From Planctomycetaceae bacterium (GTDB taxonomy: Bacteria > Planctomycetota > Planctomycetia > Pirellulales > Pirellulaceae): DNA of 64,000 bases. Every line of letters starts with the position of its first letter. Position 1 is the first letter of the stretch. The notes beneath the pieces were generated by a model, which had not been told where the DNA came from, did not search any database, and worked only from the letters and a program-made list of their open reading frames with translations. Location of the stretch: assembly GCA_021298315.1 (NCBI GenBank), contig JAJTFC010000012.1, forward strand, positions 1 to 64,000, in the 5' to 3' direction. Below, in pieces: positions 47,262 to 54,471 of this stretch. The translations under genes and the position numbers were made by a program.

Positions 47262-49862
47262 ATGCGAATCACTTCAGTTCTCTGCACGGTATTTGCGCTG
47301 TCTTTGTGCGCCCAGTCGTCGAGTCTTATTGGACAAGACTCCGTCAAGAATCCGAGCGTTCTCGATCGTGCAGCGATCATTCGCTCACAGCGATATTTCG
47401 ACAACCAGGATTGGGATTGGTTCGTCGAGAACATCCCTTTTCTAGATTGTCCTAATGAGGACATCCAAACTACGTATTACTACCGTTGGGAACTGATCAC
47501 CAAGCATTTAACCTATGGGAATCCTGACACCGGCTATCTATTTACCGAGTTCATCGACCGTCCGTTTTGGTCCGGGGCTTATGGAGCAATCAGTTGTCCT
47601 GCGGGTCATCAACTCTATGAAGCCCGTTGGTTGCGAAGTGGAACGATCGCCAAAGACTACTCGCGTTACTGGGTAAGCACTCCTGGAGCGCAGCCACGGA
47701 ACTACTCGACTTGGTTGGCCGATGCTGTTGTAGCTGTCGATGCAATTCATCCAGACCCAGAGCATCTTAGCCGGCTACTCGATGGGCTGATCGCAAACTA
47801 TGAAGGCTGGAAAAAGCGTCATTTCGATCCTGCGGTCGGACTGTTTTGGCAGACGGGTCATGACGATGGGATGGAGTTCAACATCGCCAGTCGACAGACC
47901 CAAGATATCCTGCGGGGTGCACCGAGTTATCGTCCTTCGTTCAATGCCTACATGTGGGCTGACGCGAAGGCGATCGCCAAGATTGCTTCGAAGCAAGGCA
48001 AGGTAGAAATCGAAAAGCAGTTCAACGACTTTGCAGACAAACTGCAAACGACGATGCTCGCGAAACTTTGGGATCCGAAACGCAAATTCTTCTTCCCAAT
48101 GTTCAAGAATAACGAGAATCGAGACGGATACCAGATCGCCGCAGGGTCGCTTGTGTACCAAGAAGGACGCTTTGCCGGAGATAGCCATGGGCGAGAACTC
48201 ATCGGCTATGTTCCTTGGCAATTTCCTATGTTGGAACCCAACAGTCCCTATGAAGAGGCTTGGGCCAAACTCATGGACACCGATGGGTTTTTCGCTGCGT
48301 ATGGACCGACGACGGTCGAGCGCAACGACCCGATGTTCCTGCTTCAAAAAAGCTGTTGCTGGTGGAGCGGTCAGTCTTGGCCCTATGCAACCACACAAAC
48401 GCTCAAGGCTCTTGCGAACGTCTTGCAACGTAGCGATACCAAGATTGTTCGGCCCGAAGAATATGTGCGCCTTTTGGATATCTATGCCAAGTCGCATCGC
48501 AAGGAAGGGAAACCTTACCTGGCCGAAGCTCTTCATCCCGATACTGGATCCTTTGAGGGTCATGATGGATACAACCACAGCGAACACTACTTCCATTCGG
48601 GCTTCTGCGATCTAGTGATCACCGGGCTCGTCGGTTTGCAGCCTACGGATTCCGATGAAATCGTGCTCCATCCATTGGCACCCGCAAGCTGGGATTACCT
48701 TGCCCTCGATGGTCTGAACCTAAGAGGTCGCCAAGTTTCGATTCTTTGGGATCGGACCGGCGATCGCTATAAGCGAGGAAAAGGGTTCATGGTATTCGCT
48801 GATGGCCAGCAGATCGCCCAGCAAAGCGAACTCACACCGCTCAGAGTGAAGTTGCCAGAGACGAATACTCTATCGACCAATCCCAAGGATCGATTGGTCA
48901 ATCATTTGGTCAACAACGATGGTAACTATTATCCAAGAATTCAAAGCAGTAGCACCCGACCCGGTACATCGATTGCCAAGTTGCAGGATGGAAACTACTG
49001 GTACATGCAAAATCCACCAAATCGTTGGGAGAGCGCTGCGAGTGAAACCGTCACGCTCGAAGCTGACTTTGGCTCGAGCCGAGAGATTCAATCGATCGAT
49101 ATGCTTTTCTTGGACGATTCGATCGAATGCTTGGGACATGGCCAATTTCCGGATATTTCGAAAGCCCAAGTCGTTGTTCCCGCAAGCGTGAAGCTAGAGG
49201 GTTATCGCGATGGAAAATGGGTTCTTATCGAGCAGCGTGCCAAGGATCGATTGCGAGGCAAGCATCCGACGAAGTTCAGCACCTCATCGGCTCGTTTCGA
49301 TAAAATTCGTATCGAGCTGCAACCGCAAGAAGGTAAACGTGTAGGTTTGACGGAGATCCAAGCATGGGGCTTTGATGAAAGTCCCTATCGGATAGCTCCA
49401 ATGCCAAAGGGTAATTTGGCTTATCGTGGACCCGGCGCAGAGTATCCAAAGGCAAGTGCGTCGCATAGCGATCGTTTTGGTGGTACGCCCGAGAAGTCCA
49501 ACGACGGGAAAACGGTATTCGATCCGAATCCCTTGAATCGTTGGACCAGTTACGAGTCGACTCAAAGCGAAGATTGGCTGGAATTGGATCTTGGTCAACC
49601 CCGAACTTTCGGGCGCATTGAGTTAGCGATCTATGACGATCGCGGGGGGGTGCAAGCTCCGGAGGCTTACCGGATCGAGGTTTGGCAGGAGGGCAAGTGG
49701 GTGGGTGTCGAAAAAGAAGTTCATCGGCCCGAGAAACCCGCTGGGAGTCAGTGGAATCAGGCAACCTTCAGCAGTGTGACTAGTTCCAAGTTGCGAGTCG
49801 TGTTTCGCCACAAGTTGCCTGCTAAAAGCGGGGTGACCGAAGTCATGCTCTGGGAGCAGTAA
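47262..49862 (+). CDS. Secreted MGH1-like glycoside hydrolase with C-terminal discoidin-like domains
   Basis: 866 aa with a Sec signal peptide (MRITSVLCTVFALSLCAQSSS). Residues of about 60-480 form an (alpha/alpha)6-type glycosidase like the mannosylglycerate hydrolase MGH1/GH63 group: YYYRWELITKHL, the acidic stretches WQTGHDDGMEFNIASRQT and RPSFNAYMWADAKAIAKIA, CCWWSGQSWPYATTQTLKAL and GHDGYNHSEHYFHSGFCDLVITGLVGLQ. Two beta-rich segments of F5/8-type-C (discoidin) character follow (about 540-700 and 715-866), each with a W-x-S/SA...L-D-F/LG pattern, for example NRWTSYESTQSEDWLELDLGQPRTFGRIELAIYDD. It is expected in the periplasm or outside. Substrate unknown. It starts 3 nt after the permease stop and overlaps convergent arsC by 20 nt. 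Confidence 0.8.
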   Translation: MRITSVLCTVFALSLCAQSSSLIGQDSVKNPSVLDRAAIIRSQRYFDNQDWDWFVENIPFLDCPNEDIQTTYYYRWELITKHLTYGNPDTGYLFTEFIDRPFWSGAYGAISCPAGHQLYEARWLRSGTIAKDYSRYWVSTPGAQPRNYSTWLADAVVAVDAIHPDPEHLSRLLDGLIANYEGWKKRHFDPAVGLFWQTGHDDGMEFNIASRQTQDILRGAPSYRPSFNAYMWADAKAIAKIASKQGKVEIEKQFNDFADKLQTTMLAKLWDPKRKFFFPMFKNNENRDGYQIAAGSLVYQEGRFAGDSHGRELIGYVPWQFPMLEPNSPYEEAWAKLMDTDGFFAAYGPTTVERNDPMFLLQKSCCWWSGQSWPYATTQTLKALANVLQRSDTKIVRPEEYVRLLDIYAKSHRKEGKPYLAEALHPDTGSFEGHDGYNHSEHYFHSGFCDLVITGLVGLQPTDSDEIVLHPLAPASWDYLALDGLNLRGRQVSILWDRTGDRYKRGKGFMVFADGQQIAQQSELTPLRVKLPETNTLSTNPKDRLVNHLVNNDGNYYPRIQSSSTRPGTSIAKLQDGNYWYMQNPPNRWESAASETVTLEADFGSSREIQSIDMLFLDDSIECLGHGQFPDISKAQVVVPASVKLEGYRDGKWVLIEQRAKDRLRGKHPTKFSTSSARFDKIRIELQPQEGKRVGLTEIQAWGFDESPYRIAPMPKGNLAYRGPGAEYPKASASHSDRFGGTPEKSNDGKTVFDPNPLNRWTSYESTQSEDWLELDLGQPRTFGRIELAIYDDRGGVQAPEAYRIEVWQEGKWVGVEKEVHRPEKPAGSQWNQATFSSVTSSKLRVVFRHKLPAKSGVTEVMLWEQ

Positions 49863-50253
49863 GCTTACCAACGAGTTGCTTGACTTTGGATTCGATCAAA
49901 TCGCGAACACCGCGAAACTCCTCGGGTGTCATGTCTCTAGGGTCGGGGATCTGCCAATCGATCCGCTCATTGGCTAGCACCAATGGGCACTCGTCTCCGC
50001 ATCCCATCGTCACGGCAACATCGACCTGGGTACCGTTGAAACCTTCAAGCCCCTTGGAGGTGTGCTGCGTTAGATCGTAACCGAGCTCTCGCATTGCTTC
50101 GATCGCCTTGGGATTCACCCTACCGCTGGGTCTGGATCCGGCGCTATCGGCTAGGACTTGGTCTTTGCCATGGATCCTTGCAAACGCTTCGGCCATCTGG
50201 GATCGATTGGAATTCTCAACGCACACAAATAAAATTCGCTTGGGATTGGTCAT
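49843..50253 (-). CDS. arsC: Arsenate reductase (thioredoxin-coupled, LMW phosphatase fold)
   Basis: Reduces arsenate to arsenite in the cytoplasm, 136 aa. The P-loop CxxxxxR motif is FVCVENSNRSQMAEAF (Cys11, Arg17). The redox cysteines expected of the thioredoxin-linked class are in VTMGCGDECPLV (Cys85, Cys89), and the general-acid Asp is in WQIPDPRDMTPEEFR. It is the last gene of the minus-strand arsenic operon. Its 3' end overlaps the convergent glycoside hydrolase by 20 nt. The product arsenite would leave by the aquaporin encoded two genes upstream. Confidence 0.93.
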   Translation of the reverse strand: MTNPKRILFVCVENSNRSQMAEAFARIHGKDQVLADSAGSRPSGRVNPKAIEAMRELGYDLTQHTSKGLEGFNGTQVDVAVTMGCGDECPLVLANERIDWQIPDPRDMTPEEFRGVRDLIESKVKQLVGKLTAPRA

Positions 50254-50305
50254 CGGTTTGTCTTTAAATTAATGGAGAGCTATCGGATGGAACTTTGGAC
50301 AAATT

Positions 50306-50761
50306 TCAGCAGCATCCTGGACCGCTGCATGCAGACATCACATTGAGTTCGATTCGGCATTTGTCCGGTGCTAAACAAGCGGTGTGCTTGTTGGCAACCT
50401 GAAATACCAATCCTTGATCGTTGAACTCGATCGATTGCAAGGGATACTGCGAGAGGATTTCTTGCTCGTATTCGATCTCGATAGGGATATGCTGGTTATC
50501 GAAAAGCCCCAGTCCTTTCTCGATGATCTTGTTTAATTTGGTTGTGTCGAGGCGATGCTCTAGATCGTTTGCCACCCAGATTTGGAGAAGGCAGCTTGCG
50601 GTACTGCGGAGTGTGCCACCGCAATCGACGAAGCGTTTTTGGACATGACCGACCTCCGTGACGTGGAAGTGAGCTGGGATCGATCCACCGGAGGGCAAAG
50701 CGATTTGGATCGAGCGGTCTGGATGGTTCTTCAAAATGTCCAGTAGTTCTATGAGTTCCAC
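50306..50761 (-). CDS. DUF6428-like protein with Cys-rich C-terminus
   Basis: A 151-residue soluble protein beginning MELIELLDILKNHPDRSIQIALPSGGSIPAHFHVTEVGHVQKRFVDCGGTLR, which matches the pattern I know as DUF6428, a family seen in arsenic clusters. The C-terminus reads CRIELNVMSACSGPGCC, giving four Cys in the last 18 residues, plus Cys near positions 47, 57 and 129. Thiol clusters of this sort could bind arsenite or another soft metal. That is an inference. It lies between the aquaporin (43 nt) and arsC (52 nt) genes. No catalytic motif is visible. Confidence 0.7.
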   Translation of the reverse strand: MELIELLDILKNHPDRSIQIALPSGGSIPAHFHVTEVGHVQKRFVDCGGTLRSTASCLLQIWVANDLEHRLDTTKLNKIIEKGLGLFDNQHIPIEIEYEQEILSQYPLQSIEFNDQGLVFQVANKHTACLAPDKCRIELNVMSACSGPGCC

Positions 50762-50804
50762 AGCGAGTTTGCTCCTCTTCGTTGATATTCAATTGGGATT
50801 GTCT

Positions 50805-51485
50805 TCATTGGGACTGAGCCGTTGGATTCCTGATCATTGAAAAAGTACCAACTGCAAGAGCCGAGCCGATCATCGGCGCTAGCAGATAAGCCCATAAATG
50901 TTCAGGGTGCATTGAAATCAAGGCTGGGGCCAAGGATCGGGCTGGATTCATCGACGCTCCTGAGATAGGGCCGGCAAACATCGCTTCGAGGCCGATGACT
51001 GCTCCTATCGAAATCGCTGCGAAGGCAGCGTCTGGCTGAGGGCCACTGGAGACACACAAAATCACCAGCATCAGAATCCAGGTCAGCACGATCTCCAGGA
51101 CAAACGACTGCATCGCTCCGGATGCTGGAAGCGTTGCTCCAAGAGTTGGATGCTCAGGAAACATCGCTCGTATGATAAGGCTCGCGAGCAACGCTCCTGC
51201 GCATTGGCTTGCGATGTAAGATCCAAGTTCCTTTGTAGGAAATTTTCCTGCTAGCCATAAGCCCATGCTTACCGATGGATTCAGGTGGCATCCCGAGATC
51301 GGCCCTAAAGCGTGGATCAGTGCTAGTACGACTAGACCGAACGTAAGTGCGATTCCGACGTGGGTGATCGCACCCTGGCTGAGATCATTGACGACGATCG
51401 CCCCGGTTCCGCAGAAGATCAAGATGAAAGTCCCTAAAGCTTCGCAAAGCGATCGTCGAGTTAAACTTCCAGCGATTGGACTCAT
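50805..51485 (-). CDS. aqpS: MIP/aquaglyceroporin-family channel, probable arsenite exit channel
   Basis: A 226-residue six-helix aquaporin-fold protein. The two pore half-helices carry GCHLNPSVSMGLW (NPS in place of the first NPA) and SGASMNPARSLAPALI (second NPA). In Sinorhizobium meliloti an aquaglyceroporin (AqpS) in an ars operon replaces the ArsB/Acr3 pump and lets arsenite out down its gradient. This operon has the same content: arsR, channel, arsC, no pump. The ATG overlaps the arsR stop as ATGA, so the two are translationally coupled. Channel selectivity is inferred from context. Confidence 0.87.
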   Translation of the reverse strand: MSPIAGSLTRRSLCEALGTFILIFCGTGAIVVNDLSQGAITHVGIALTFGLVVLALIHALGPISGCHLNPSVSMGLWLAGKFPTKELGSYIASQCAGALLASLIIRAMFPEHPTLGATLPASGAMQSFVLEIVLTWILMLVILCVSSGPQPDAAFAAISIGAVIGLEAMFAGPISGASMNPARSLAPALISMHPEHLWAYLLAPMIGSALAVGTFSMIRNPTAQSQ

Positions 51486-51898
51486 CTTGGGAGCCTTGCC
51501 CTATCCCTTGAGGAGACTTCTTCCATCAAGCAAAGGCCTTGATCCAAAAGGGATCGCACGCACAGGTCGACCAGTTGGTAATGGATGTTGTTTCCCTCTC
51601 GGCGAGAGGTGAGGATCCCCAAGTCCGATAGTCGTTGGAGTTGGTTCGAGATCGCTTGGGGTTTCATGCCAAGCGACTTGGCGAGTTGGCTAACACACAA
51701 TTCCTCGTCACGAACCAGGGCGTGGAGGAGACGAAGACGCGTGTCGTTGGCAAGTACTTTAAAGACCGCCGCAAGCCCGCCTGCTTGGATCGGGGACAAT
51801 AGCGACCGATCTTTCAGCGCCACCACTTGGCAACAGGTCTTGTTTTGGGGCTTTTTGAGAGCCCCAAGTTTTTGCGAGGTGTTTTTTGCAGTTTTCAT
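51482..51898 (-). CDS. arsR: ArsR-family metalloregulator
   Basis: A 138-residue winged-helix repressor expected to control the ars operon. The HTH core is FKVLANDTRLRLLHALVRDEELCVSQLAKSLGMKPQAISNQLQRLSDLGILTSRREGNNIHYQL. The classic ELCVCDL arsenite site appears as ELCVSQL, keeping only one Cys (Cys68); a CC pair at 22-23 (KTCCQVV) could supply the other ligands, as the N-terminal cysteines do in CadC-type sensors. DNA binding would be released by arsenite. First gene of the operon; promoter and operator-like inverted repeat lie 30-60 nt upstream. Confidence 0.9.
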   Translation of the reverse strand: MKTAKNTSQKLGALKKPQNKTCCQVVALKDRSLLSPIQAGGLAAVFKVLANDTRLRLLHALVRDEELCVSQLAKSLGMKPQAISNQLQRLSDLGILTSRREGNNIHYQLVDLCVRSLLDQGLCLMEEVSSRDRARLPR

Positions 51899-51925
51899 CC
51901 CTACGGATCCTAGTTGAGCTTTCTG

Positions 51926-51959
51926 CTATTACACTATACCGTGTAACGGTGTATGTCAA
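51926..51959 (-). promoter_or_regulatory. ars promoter with overlapping ArsR operator
   Basis: Reading the minus strand: a perfect -35 TTGACA (plus-strand TGTCAA 51954-51959), then TACACCGTTACACGG and TATAGT (15-nt spacer) or TAGTGT (17-nt spacer). Lying between and over the -10 is the inverted repeat TTACAC-N6-GTGTAA (51929-51946), with a further partial ACACC/GGTGT dyad. The repeat sits where an ArsR dimer would block RNA polymerase, so autorepression relieved by arsenite is inferred. Confidence 0.7.
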
Positions 51960-51965
51960 TCGCAA

Positions 51966-52181
51966 GATTCGAAACGGGCGGTGCTCTGGCGCACACGATG
52001 ATTTCGGAGAAATCATCGACACTTGTTCGCTACAGCGAACATTCGTTTAACCCGCAGCCAACGGCGAGGAACTTAACCAAGCCCACTCGGATAGTGCGTT
52101 TGGTGTAAAACGGAGGAGTTCACACCCGGGGGGCGGCAATGTGTTCTATGTTGTGATATCGGTTTTGGATGGTCTTGACGG
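51966..52181 (+). repeat. Long intergenic repeat, copy A
   Basis: About 215 bp: GCTCTGGCGC-ACACGATG..., the 23-bp palindrome (51996-52018), a second hairpin TGTTCGC-TACA-GCGAACA (52024-52041), AACCCGCAGCCAACGGCGAG, AAGCCCACTCGG, AGGAGTTCACACCC and TTTTGGATGGTCT. Copies C (52310-52511) and D (53939-54113) share this order in the same orientation. Confidence 0.8.
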
Positions 52182-52211
52182 TATTGACCGATTCCAACAT
52201 GTGCTCTGCAA

Positions 52212-52365
52212 GGCGGCCTGGGTCAGGTTGTCGATTTGAATCGGGCAGTGCTCTGGCGCTCACGATGATTTCGGAGAAATCATCGACAGGCGGCCTGGGT
52301 CAGGTTGTCGATTTGAATCGGGCAGTGCTCTGGCGCTCACGATGATTTCGGAGAAATCATCGACA
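52212..52365 (+). repeat. Exact 77-bp tandem duplication
   Basis: GGCGGCCTGGGTCAGGTTGT...AAATCATCGACA occurs at 52212-52288 and again at 52289-52365 with no difference that I can see. Each unit ends in the 23-bp palindrome. The identity implies a recent duplication. The second unit runs on into copy C of the long repeat. Confidence 0.9.
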
Positions 52366-52511
52366 CTGTTCGTTTAACCCGCAGCCAAGGGCGAGGAATT
52401 TTACCAAGCCCACTAGGATCGTGCGTTTGGGGCAAAACGCAGGAGTTCATAGCCGGGGGGCTTGGCGATGTGTTTTGTTGTTTACCGTTGGGTTTTGGAT
52501 GGTCTCAACGG
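52310..52511 (+). repeat. Long intergenic repeat, copy C
   Basis: Same order of blocks as copy A, but the second hairpin is deleted (CACTGTTCGTTTAACCC). It contains the palindrome at 52340-52362 and ends GGTTTTGGATGGTCTCAACGG. Confidence 0.75.
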
Positions 52512-53901: not shown

Positions 53902-53926
53902 GCGCGTCGCCGTCAAGGCGACGCGC
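53902..53926. terminator. Perfect 10-bp hairpin after the SUMF1/PEP-CTERM gene
   Basis: GCGCGTCGCC-GTCAA-GGCGACGCGC, 36 nt after the stop. There is no T-run on the 3' side on the plus strand, but the 5' flank is T-rich, so a terminator reading either way is possible. A smaller relative GTCGCC-GTCA-GGCGAC occurs near 54538. Confidence 0.5.
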
Positions 53927-53938
53927 GTGATTAATGGC

Positions 53939-54113
53939 GATTTGAATCGGGCTAAGCTCTGGCGCTCACGATGATTTCGGAGAAATCATCGACACCTGTT
54001 CTTTTCAGCGAACATTCGTTTAACCCGCAGCCAACGGCGAGGAACTTAACCAAGCCCACTCGGATTCCGCGTTTGGGGCAAAACGCAGGAGTTCACACCC
54101 GAGGGGCTTGGCG
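53939..54113 (+). repeat. Long intergenic repeat, copy D
   Basis: Shares GATTTGAATCGGGC, GCTCTGGCGCTCACG, the 23-bp palindrome (53969-53991), AGCGAACATTCGTTTAACCC and AGGAGTTCACACCCG with copies A and C, in the same orientation. With copy C it brackets the SUMF1/PEP-CTERM gene. Confidence 0.8.
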
Positions 54114-54281: not shown

Positions 54282-54378
54282 TCGTACTCGTACTCCGCGT
54301 TAGCAGTACTCGTACTCGTACTCGAAGAGAGGGCATCGAGTACGAGTACGAGTACCATTTCATTGAGTACGAGTACGA
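54282..54378. repeat. (GAGTAC)n hexamer block with 20-bp-arm hairpin
   Basis: 54306-54325 (GTACTCGTACTCGTACTCGA) and 54336-54355 (TCGAGTACGAGTACGAGTAC) are perfect reverse complements around a 10-nt loop. The block continues ...GAGTACCATTTCATTGAGTACGA, and almost the same linker (GAGTACCGTTTCACTGAGTACGA) is found near 63201-63223. Confidence 0.85.
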
Positions 54379-54423
54379 TAAAAGACAAAACGCGCAACTT
54401 CAAAGCCTGACGGCGGTGGCATT

Positions 54424-54471
54424 TTGGACGGTATTGACCCTATCGACGGCATTGACGGTATTGACTGCGGA
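54424..54471. repeat. GACGG(T/C)ATTGAC short-period repeat
   Basis: GACGGTATTGAC, then GACGGCATTGAC and GACGGTATTGAC in close succession. The same 12-mer is seen near 52177 and a related TTGACGGTATTG near 2074. It seems a low-complexity intergenic motif. Confidence 0.5.

Follow-up and report, generated by a model that had tools for sequence, protein, structure and literature searches.

DUF6428, a candidate thiol partner of arsenate reductase encoded in a channel-type ars operon of a Planctomycetaceae bacterium

The question raised by this locus is what a small protein of the DUF6428 family, ending in a pair of cysteines, contributes to an arsenic resistance operon that carries a gene for a channel and none for a pump. 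The operon lies on the minus strand of a 64,000-nucleotide stretch of DNA from a Planctomycetaceae bacterium (GenBank assembly GCA_021298315.1, contig JAJTFC010000012.1, positions 1 to 64,000), hereafter the window, and the assembly from which it comes is 89.6% complete at 5.35 Mb. Its gene order is arsR, an aquaporin-family (MIP) gene, the DUF6428 gene and arsC. A first-pass annotation, made from the letters alone, had read these four genes as one operon, which is confirmed, family searches bearing out the name of each gene, and had proposed that the DUF6428 protein is a thiol-based arsenite carrier feeding the channel or ArsR. Our best overall explanation is a different one, namely that DUF6428 is an exporter-independent thiol partner of the arsenate reductase ArsC that accepts As(III), and we hold it at a little under an even chance.

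The DUF6428 gene (50306..50761, minus strand) begins with GTG, is preceded by GAAGAGGAG, a good Shine-Dalgarno-like sequence, and encodes 151 residues ending CSGPGCC. The protein matches PF20001 (E=7e-41) at 140 bits against a cut-off of 28.7, over model positions 2-155 of 155, and its nearest relatives are encoded by metagenome-assembled genomes of a member of the Planctomycetota (69% identity) and of a Pirellula (68%). It had been described as new, which stands for its role, since our literature search found no paper naming DUF6428, but not for the family, which is already in Pfam and is annotated by NCBI in Bacteroidota ars loci, under no label other than 'DUF6428 family protein'.

The neighbourhood of the family is what ties it to arsenic. 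Among sampled genomes, DUF6428 occurs in 77/297 Bacteroidota (26%), 33/289 Verrucomicrobiota (11%) and 2/392 Planctomycetota (0.5%). In these phylum samples arsR, arsC or acr3 lies within ∼1.5 kb in 30/30 Bacteroidota and 29/30 Verrucomicrobiota loci, and the same is true of 17 more Bacteroidota copies that are divergent or intermediate; three weak Verrucomicrobiota copies have none of the three genes within that distance. A separate set of 82 cellular loci, picked largely by similarity to the query, has arsR, arsC or acr3 no more than 4 kb away in 64. Cellular homologues are therefore not found mostly outside ars loci, an outcome that the first-pass annotation had named as one that would tell against its proposal. 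The gene adjoins arsR or arsC, adjacency to arsC being frequent, and 12 loci show the exact order ArsR-MIP-DUF6428-ArsC. In three planctomycete genomes (our loci L016, L025 and L036) DUF6428 and ArsC form single chains with both Pfam domains. These fusions belong to the 18 of the 82 loci that lack separate ars neighbours, and ArsC is the only fusion partner; neither MIP nor ArsR is ever one. Where the cellular gene stands alone, 10 of the 11 genomes checked have an ArsC-like gene elsewhere (E<=1e-5; one match weak), and no functional theme was found among its neighbours, some copies lying among housekeeping genes. Searching the ars loci for conserved extra genes returned only scattered matches, such as HMA and MerT. 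Separately, we observed a metallophosphoesterase gene between DUF6428 and acr3, or just past acr3, in several Bacteroidota ars operons (L003, L005, L007, L008 and others).

The exporter, by contrast with these constant partners, varies. The 64 ars loci contain a MIP gene only in 28 cases, acr3 only in 16, both in 2 and neither in 18, and because of this distribution we conclude that DUF6428 follows ArsR and ArsC and not one exporter. The comparison of MIP and Acr3 co-occurrence that had been suggested as a check thus goes against a channel-specific partner: DUF6428 accompanies Acr3 and MIP at roughly equal frequency, and some of its loci have neither. With ArsR and ArsC as constant partners, ArsC as sole fusion partner and the exporter changing from locus to locus, we place DUF6428 at the reduction step and not at the channel. 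The analysis has as its main result a role for this undescribed family that is linked to ArsC and independent of the exporter, and we advance it with slightly more doubt than conviction.

What the protein might do at that step is suggested by its conserved residues. Across 197 aligned sequences D46, C47, G48 and C129 never vary, and C150 is kept in 188 of them. H33, T35 and E36 are also invariant in this set, which was selected on those three residues (L165, lacking the motif, was left out), and they are likewise invariant in an unselected 92-row alignment, whose invariant polar residues are H33, T35, E36, K42, D46, C47, Q60, D66, H69 and E97. The terminal Cys-Cys pair (Cys150-Cys151, codons at 50309..50314, minus strand) is present in 126/141 cellular, 28/32 phage and 19/20 divergent members, or ∼90%, and the divergent members keep it though they have lost His31, Lys42, His69 and mostly Cys135. 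The cysteine tail noted in the first pass is therefore real and widely conserved, and its non-conservation, another outcome named beforehand, is not seen for cellular genes; it is not universal, however, and the invariant cysteines are C47 and C129. An AlphaFold2 model of the protein (predicted local distance difference test score 93) consists of two helix-plus-three-strand halves followed by a low-confidence tail that is predicted to be disordered. The combination of invariant cysteines and a flexible vicinal pair suggests a thiol site, made up of C47, C129 and the tail, that could accept As(III).

No PDB entry matched this model at E<=0.001, the lowest E-value being 0.11; we therefore rejected assignment to a known fold, and the modelled fold is apparently new. 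In a viral structure library, three small uncharacterised phage proteins (BFVD A0A8E7L3F0, A0A8S5U5U3 and A0A2I7QT50) resemble the model with a Foldseek probability of 1.00, E-values of 1e-3 to 2e-2 (best E=1.2e-3) and ∼10% identity, and they are possibly members of a wider fold family.

Phages carry the gene as well. Forty-four IMG/VR contigs (L093-L136) encode DUF6428, for example at L109:4992-5450 and L118:4941-5381, and 43 of them have no ars gene nearby. Several are plainly phage, with genes for a T4-type major head protein, portal and terminase within a few kilobases, and the neighbours of the phage copies include head and packaging genes, DNA methyltransferases and HNH endonucleases. 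INPHARED yielded one match, in a 595-kb uncultured phage. Phage and cellular copies are intermixed in the tree, with 9-10 label changes, at least 2 of them forced by well-supported branches, an intermixing that points to acquisition by phages, probably on more than one occasion. The two phage copies scanned against PHROGs had no match; neither the window protein nor the phage protein had one in PADLOC, and we rejected an anti-phage defence role on that ground.

There are several other explanations for this pattern, and the preferred one has points against it. The proposal of a carrier that brings arsenite specifically to the aquaporin or ArsR is prompted by the position of DUF6428 between the MIP gene and arsC here and by the 12 loci that share this order. 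We regard it as very improbable: Acr3 loci are about as common, on which count we rejected a channel-specific carrier; the protein also occurs with no exporter nearby; its fusions are to ArsC only; and the phage copies have no channel, ArsR or ArsC gene nearby. Furthermore, the channel would pass only free As(OH)3, so that a tight thiol carrier would be expected to retain arsenite and not to feed it. The same consideration bears on the thiol-partner explanation, given that tight binding of As(III) would slow passive efflux through the channel. Also counting against that explanation are the ∼10% of members without the terminal pair, including copies from ars loci (L057, L070 and L076), and the 26 phage records that have DUF6428 and no ArsC, some of these records being fragments. 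DUF6428 can therefore be kept without ArsC. In addition, the invariant H33-x-T35-E36 and D46-C47-G48 resemble an active site as much as a ligand site.

Another view is that DUF6428 acts as an enzyme or a metal-site protein whose function reaches beyond arsenic, in thiol, metal or oxyanion chemistry, recruited to ars operons and, independently, by phages. Ten polar or cysteine residues invariant in the unselected alignment, the many viral contigs with no ars genes alongside, several of which carry head, portal or terminase genes, and the cellular copies amid housekeeping genes would all be accommodated by it. Nearly all copies in the cellular phylum samples are nevertheless in ars loci, as are divergent copies with other polar residues, and we judge such a broader function unlikely, while taking it more seriously than the remaining alternative. 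In that alternative the Cys-Cys tail would stand in for thioredoxin or glutaredoxin, reducing the ArsC disulfide or a thiol-arsenic intermediate; fusion to ArsC, frequent adjacency to arsC and a flexible vicinal pair are all what a redox partner might show. Among 114 ArsCs linked to DUF6428, however, nearly all still have their own nucleophile and both resolving cysteines, which makes a redox role less likely and led us to reject, as a general account, the supply of a resolving cysteine to a defective ArsC. Given also that no PDB entry, thioredoxins included, matches the fold and that phages keep the gene without ArsC, we consider the redox role rather improbable.

Returning to the thiol partner of ArsC, the operon might work as follows. 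ArsR would repress its own promoter through a TTACAC-N6-GTGTAA site and be released from it by As(III); ArsC would reduce arsenate to arsenite; and As(OH)3 would leave down its gradient through the aquaporin, all three being roles expected from the gene families. DUF6428 would be a dedicated partner of the reduction step, whatever the exporter, taking the As(III) that leaves ArsC on a thiol site formed by Cys47, Cys129 and the flexible C-terminal Cys-Cys. The bound As(III) would be kept from harming the cell and then passed on to the exporter that the cell has, MIP or Acr3, or to a sensor.

The idea that the exporter here is a channel is supported. ArsB, Acr3 and ArsA are absent from the operon, as had been noted (ArsA was not searched for genome-wide). 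In the assembly as a whole, incomplete as it is, no ArsB was found and the sole Acr3 match, to an SBF-family protein, scores 29.9, far below the cut-off of 282.8. The MIP gene (50805..51485, minus strand; PF00230, E=1e-47) thus fits an AqpS-type channel operon, standing in one operon with arsR and arsC at a locus without ArsB or Acr3. Its product has NPS and NPA pore motifs, where most relatives have NPA and NPA. The three MIPs of the genome differ in their selectivity filters, F-A-A-R in the operon against FHLR and WGYR in the other two, which we take to be water-type and glycerol-type respectively. The F-A-A-R filter recurs, across Planctomycetota to Bacteroidota, in 33 of the 46 MIPs examined. 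Among solved proteins rice NIP2-1, a silicic acid and arsenite channel, is the closest (E=2e-37), and we predict from these features that the F-A-A-R aquaporin is an arsenite channel. Twenty of the 23 genomes with MIP-type loci have no Acr3 above cut-off, and 21 have no match to any ArsB model. Within the 64 loci MIP and Acr3 avoid each other (p=0.0006, kinship ignored), in agreement with a survey in which all 18 MIPs in ars operons were without another transporter (PMC4435449) and with AqpS of Sinorhizobium meliloti, a MIP channel in an ars operon (PMC6205960). The idea of a channel instead of a pump is supported by this alternation and by the absence of ArsB and Acr3, and is a known kind of system.

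Some related genomes add an arsenite ATPase gene. In L033 and L038 (full view L236:3510-6083), arsD-arsA is divergent from arsR-DUF6428-MIP/arsC loci, and their genomes have no Acr3 above cut-off and no ArsB, leaving the ArsA ATPase and a channel without a known pump. Intact ArsD is encoded in 7/23 MIP-type genomes against 0/16 other DUF6428 genomes. Two arsD-arsA pairs in the sister genome of L013, fragments in that of L014 and a remnant arsD in the window genome itself (L233:2795-3037, on contig C196), which has lost ∼50 internal residues and has no arsA alongside, suggest that arsD is decaying in the window lineage.

The remaining genes of the operon are of the expected families. arsR (51482..51898, minus strand) encodes an ArsR/SmtB repressor (NF033788, 82.8 bits against a cut-off of 55) and overlaps the MIP gene by 4 bases, the remaining intergenic gaps being 43 and 52 bases. 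Its Cys22-Cys23 and Cys68, the last kept in 138/148 ArsRs of the loci, likely form an As(III)/Sb(III) site; the best PDB match is 6uvu (E=9e-37), on which our literature search found nothing. arsC (49843..50253, minus strand) encodes an arsenate reductase of the low-molecular-weight-phosphatase type (PF01451, E=4e-21), with its nucleophile Cys11 in the CX5R loop C11-VENSN-R and a Cys85-x3-Cys89 pair, a cysteine pattern seen in 10 of 114 aligned ArsCs, the window's own counted. Its closest PDB entry is Synechocystis ArsC 2l17 (E=9e-24). TIGR02689 is its best match of the right kind, at 95.2 bits and so below the equivalog cut-off of 157.6, and by its sequence we treat it as a divergent relative of that type without claiming it as the equivalog.

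Upstream of arsR, the promoter seen in the first pass, a TTGACA with an inverted repeat over the -10, is indeed present. The -35 hexamer lies at 51954..51959 (minus strand), with -10 candidates TATAGT (51933-51938, 15 nucleotides from the -35) and TAGTGT (51931-51936, 17 nucleotides); a generic promoter scan made no call here. Overlapping the -10 region is TTACACGGTATAGTGTAA (TTACAC-GGTATA-GTGTAA, 51929..51946, minus strand), a perfect inverted repeat. A 6-bp palindrome is by itself weak evidence, given that 73/500 shuffles of the region yield one. The exact site, however, is single-copy in the 5.35-Mb genome, and TTACAC-N6-GTGTAA recurs upstream of arsR in seven other loci (L013, L014, L018, L023, L024, L030 and L037), that is, at 7 of the 40 arsR genes with a usable anchor where 0.29 are expected, all in planctomycete promoters and mostly at a matching spacing from a TTG-type -35; L013 and L014 have TTGACG with TAGTGT at the identical 17-nucleotide spacing. 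This recurrence and the single genomic copy make it very likely that the repeat is the ArsR operator. Nearby, at 51944-52461 and 53917-54107, is a repeated intergenic element (77- and 169-bp families) bearing the hairpin GATGATTTCGGAGAAATCATC, one copy of which terminates at the ars promoter. Further on, at 54306-54465, an inverted repeat of GTACTC-type units (20-nucleotide arms, 100% complementary) is followed by a short array of repeats spaced by 9 bases.

Taken as a whole, our proposal is that DUF6428 is an undescribed arsenic-handling protein with an apparently new fold, a regular companion of ArsC in ars operons of Bacteroidota, Verrucomicrobiota and Planctomycetota whatever the exporter, and that large tailed phages have taken up its gene on more than one occasion, as an auxiliary gene standing alone; this is possible but somewhat more doubtful than the link to ArsC. 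If DUF6428 does handle arsenic, a component of the standard detoxification pathway has gone unrecognised in a large share of Bacteroidota, and a phage auxiliary gene outside PHROGs would be added; the invariant cysteines and the ArsC fusion offer direct tests. The alternation of the F-A-A-R aquaporin with Acr3 around a constant arsR-DUF6428-arsC core also supports genuine release of arsenite through a channel in Planctomycetota, Verrucomicrobiota and Bacteroidota.

Among known systems, the operon shares with the AqpS type a MIP gene beside arsR and arsC and no other exporter (PMC6205960, PMC4435449). Its MIP differs in being of the F-A-A-R type with plant NIP2-1 as closest solved relative, AqpS having been compared by description and not by alignment. 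The operon also has DUF6428 and no arsH, a gene that we take to belong to the S. meliloti ars operon. Bacteroidota ars operons, for example those of Pontibacter, Hymenobacter and Pedobacter plasmids, have the identical PF20001 family directly after arsR; they differ in using Acr3, often with a metallophosphoesterase or phosphatase-like gene, and no MIP was found in the annotated plasmid loci examined. A precedent for joining ArsC to a further protein of the same detoxification pathway is the AqpS-ArsC fusion described in Salinispora tropica (PMC6205960), whereas here the partner is DUF6428, in three planctomycete genomes. Two comparisons concern only how the protein may work. ArsD (PF06953) is a small arsenite metallochaperone of ars operons with vicinal cysteines, and mercuric reductase MerA has a flexible C-terminal Cys-Cys tail by which a thiophilic metal is first captured and then transferred. 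We rejected membership of ArsD, since DUF6428 matches PF20001 only and not PF06953; the window operon, moreover, has no ArsA, and some genomes with DUF6428 carry arsD as a gene of its own, in L033 and L038 right beside the DUF6428 operon. With MerA the protein shares a flexible vicinal cysteine pair, as an analogy only, no sequence relation having been found or claimed. By analogy, the thiol site of DUF6428 may work in the manner of ArsD or of the MerA tail, while the protein itself is a member of neither family.

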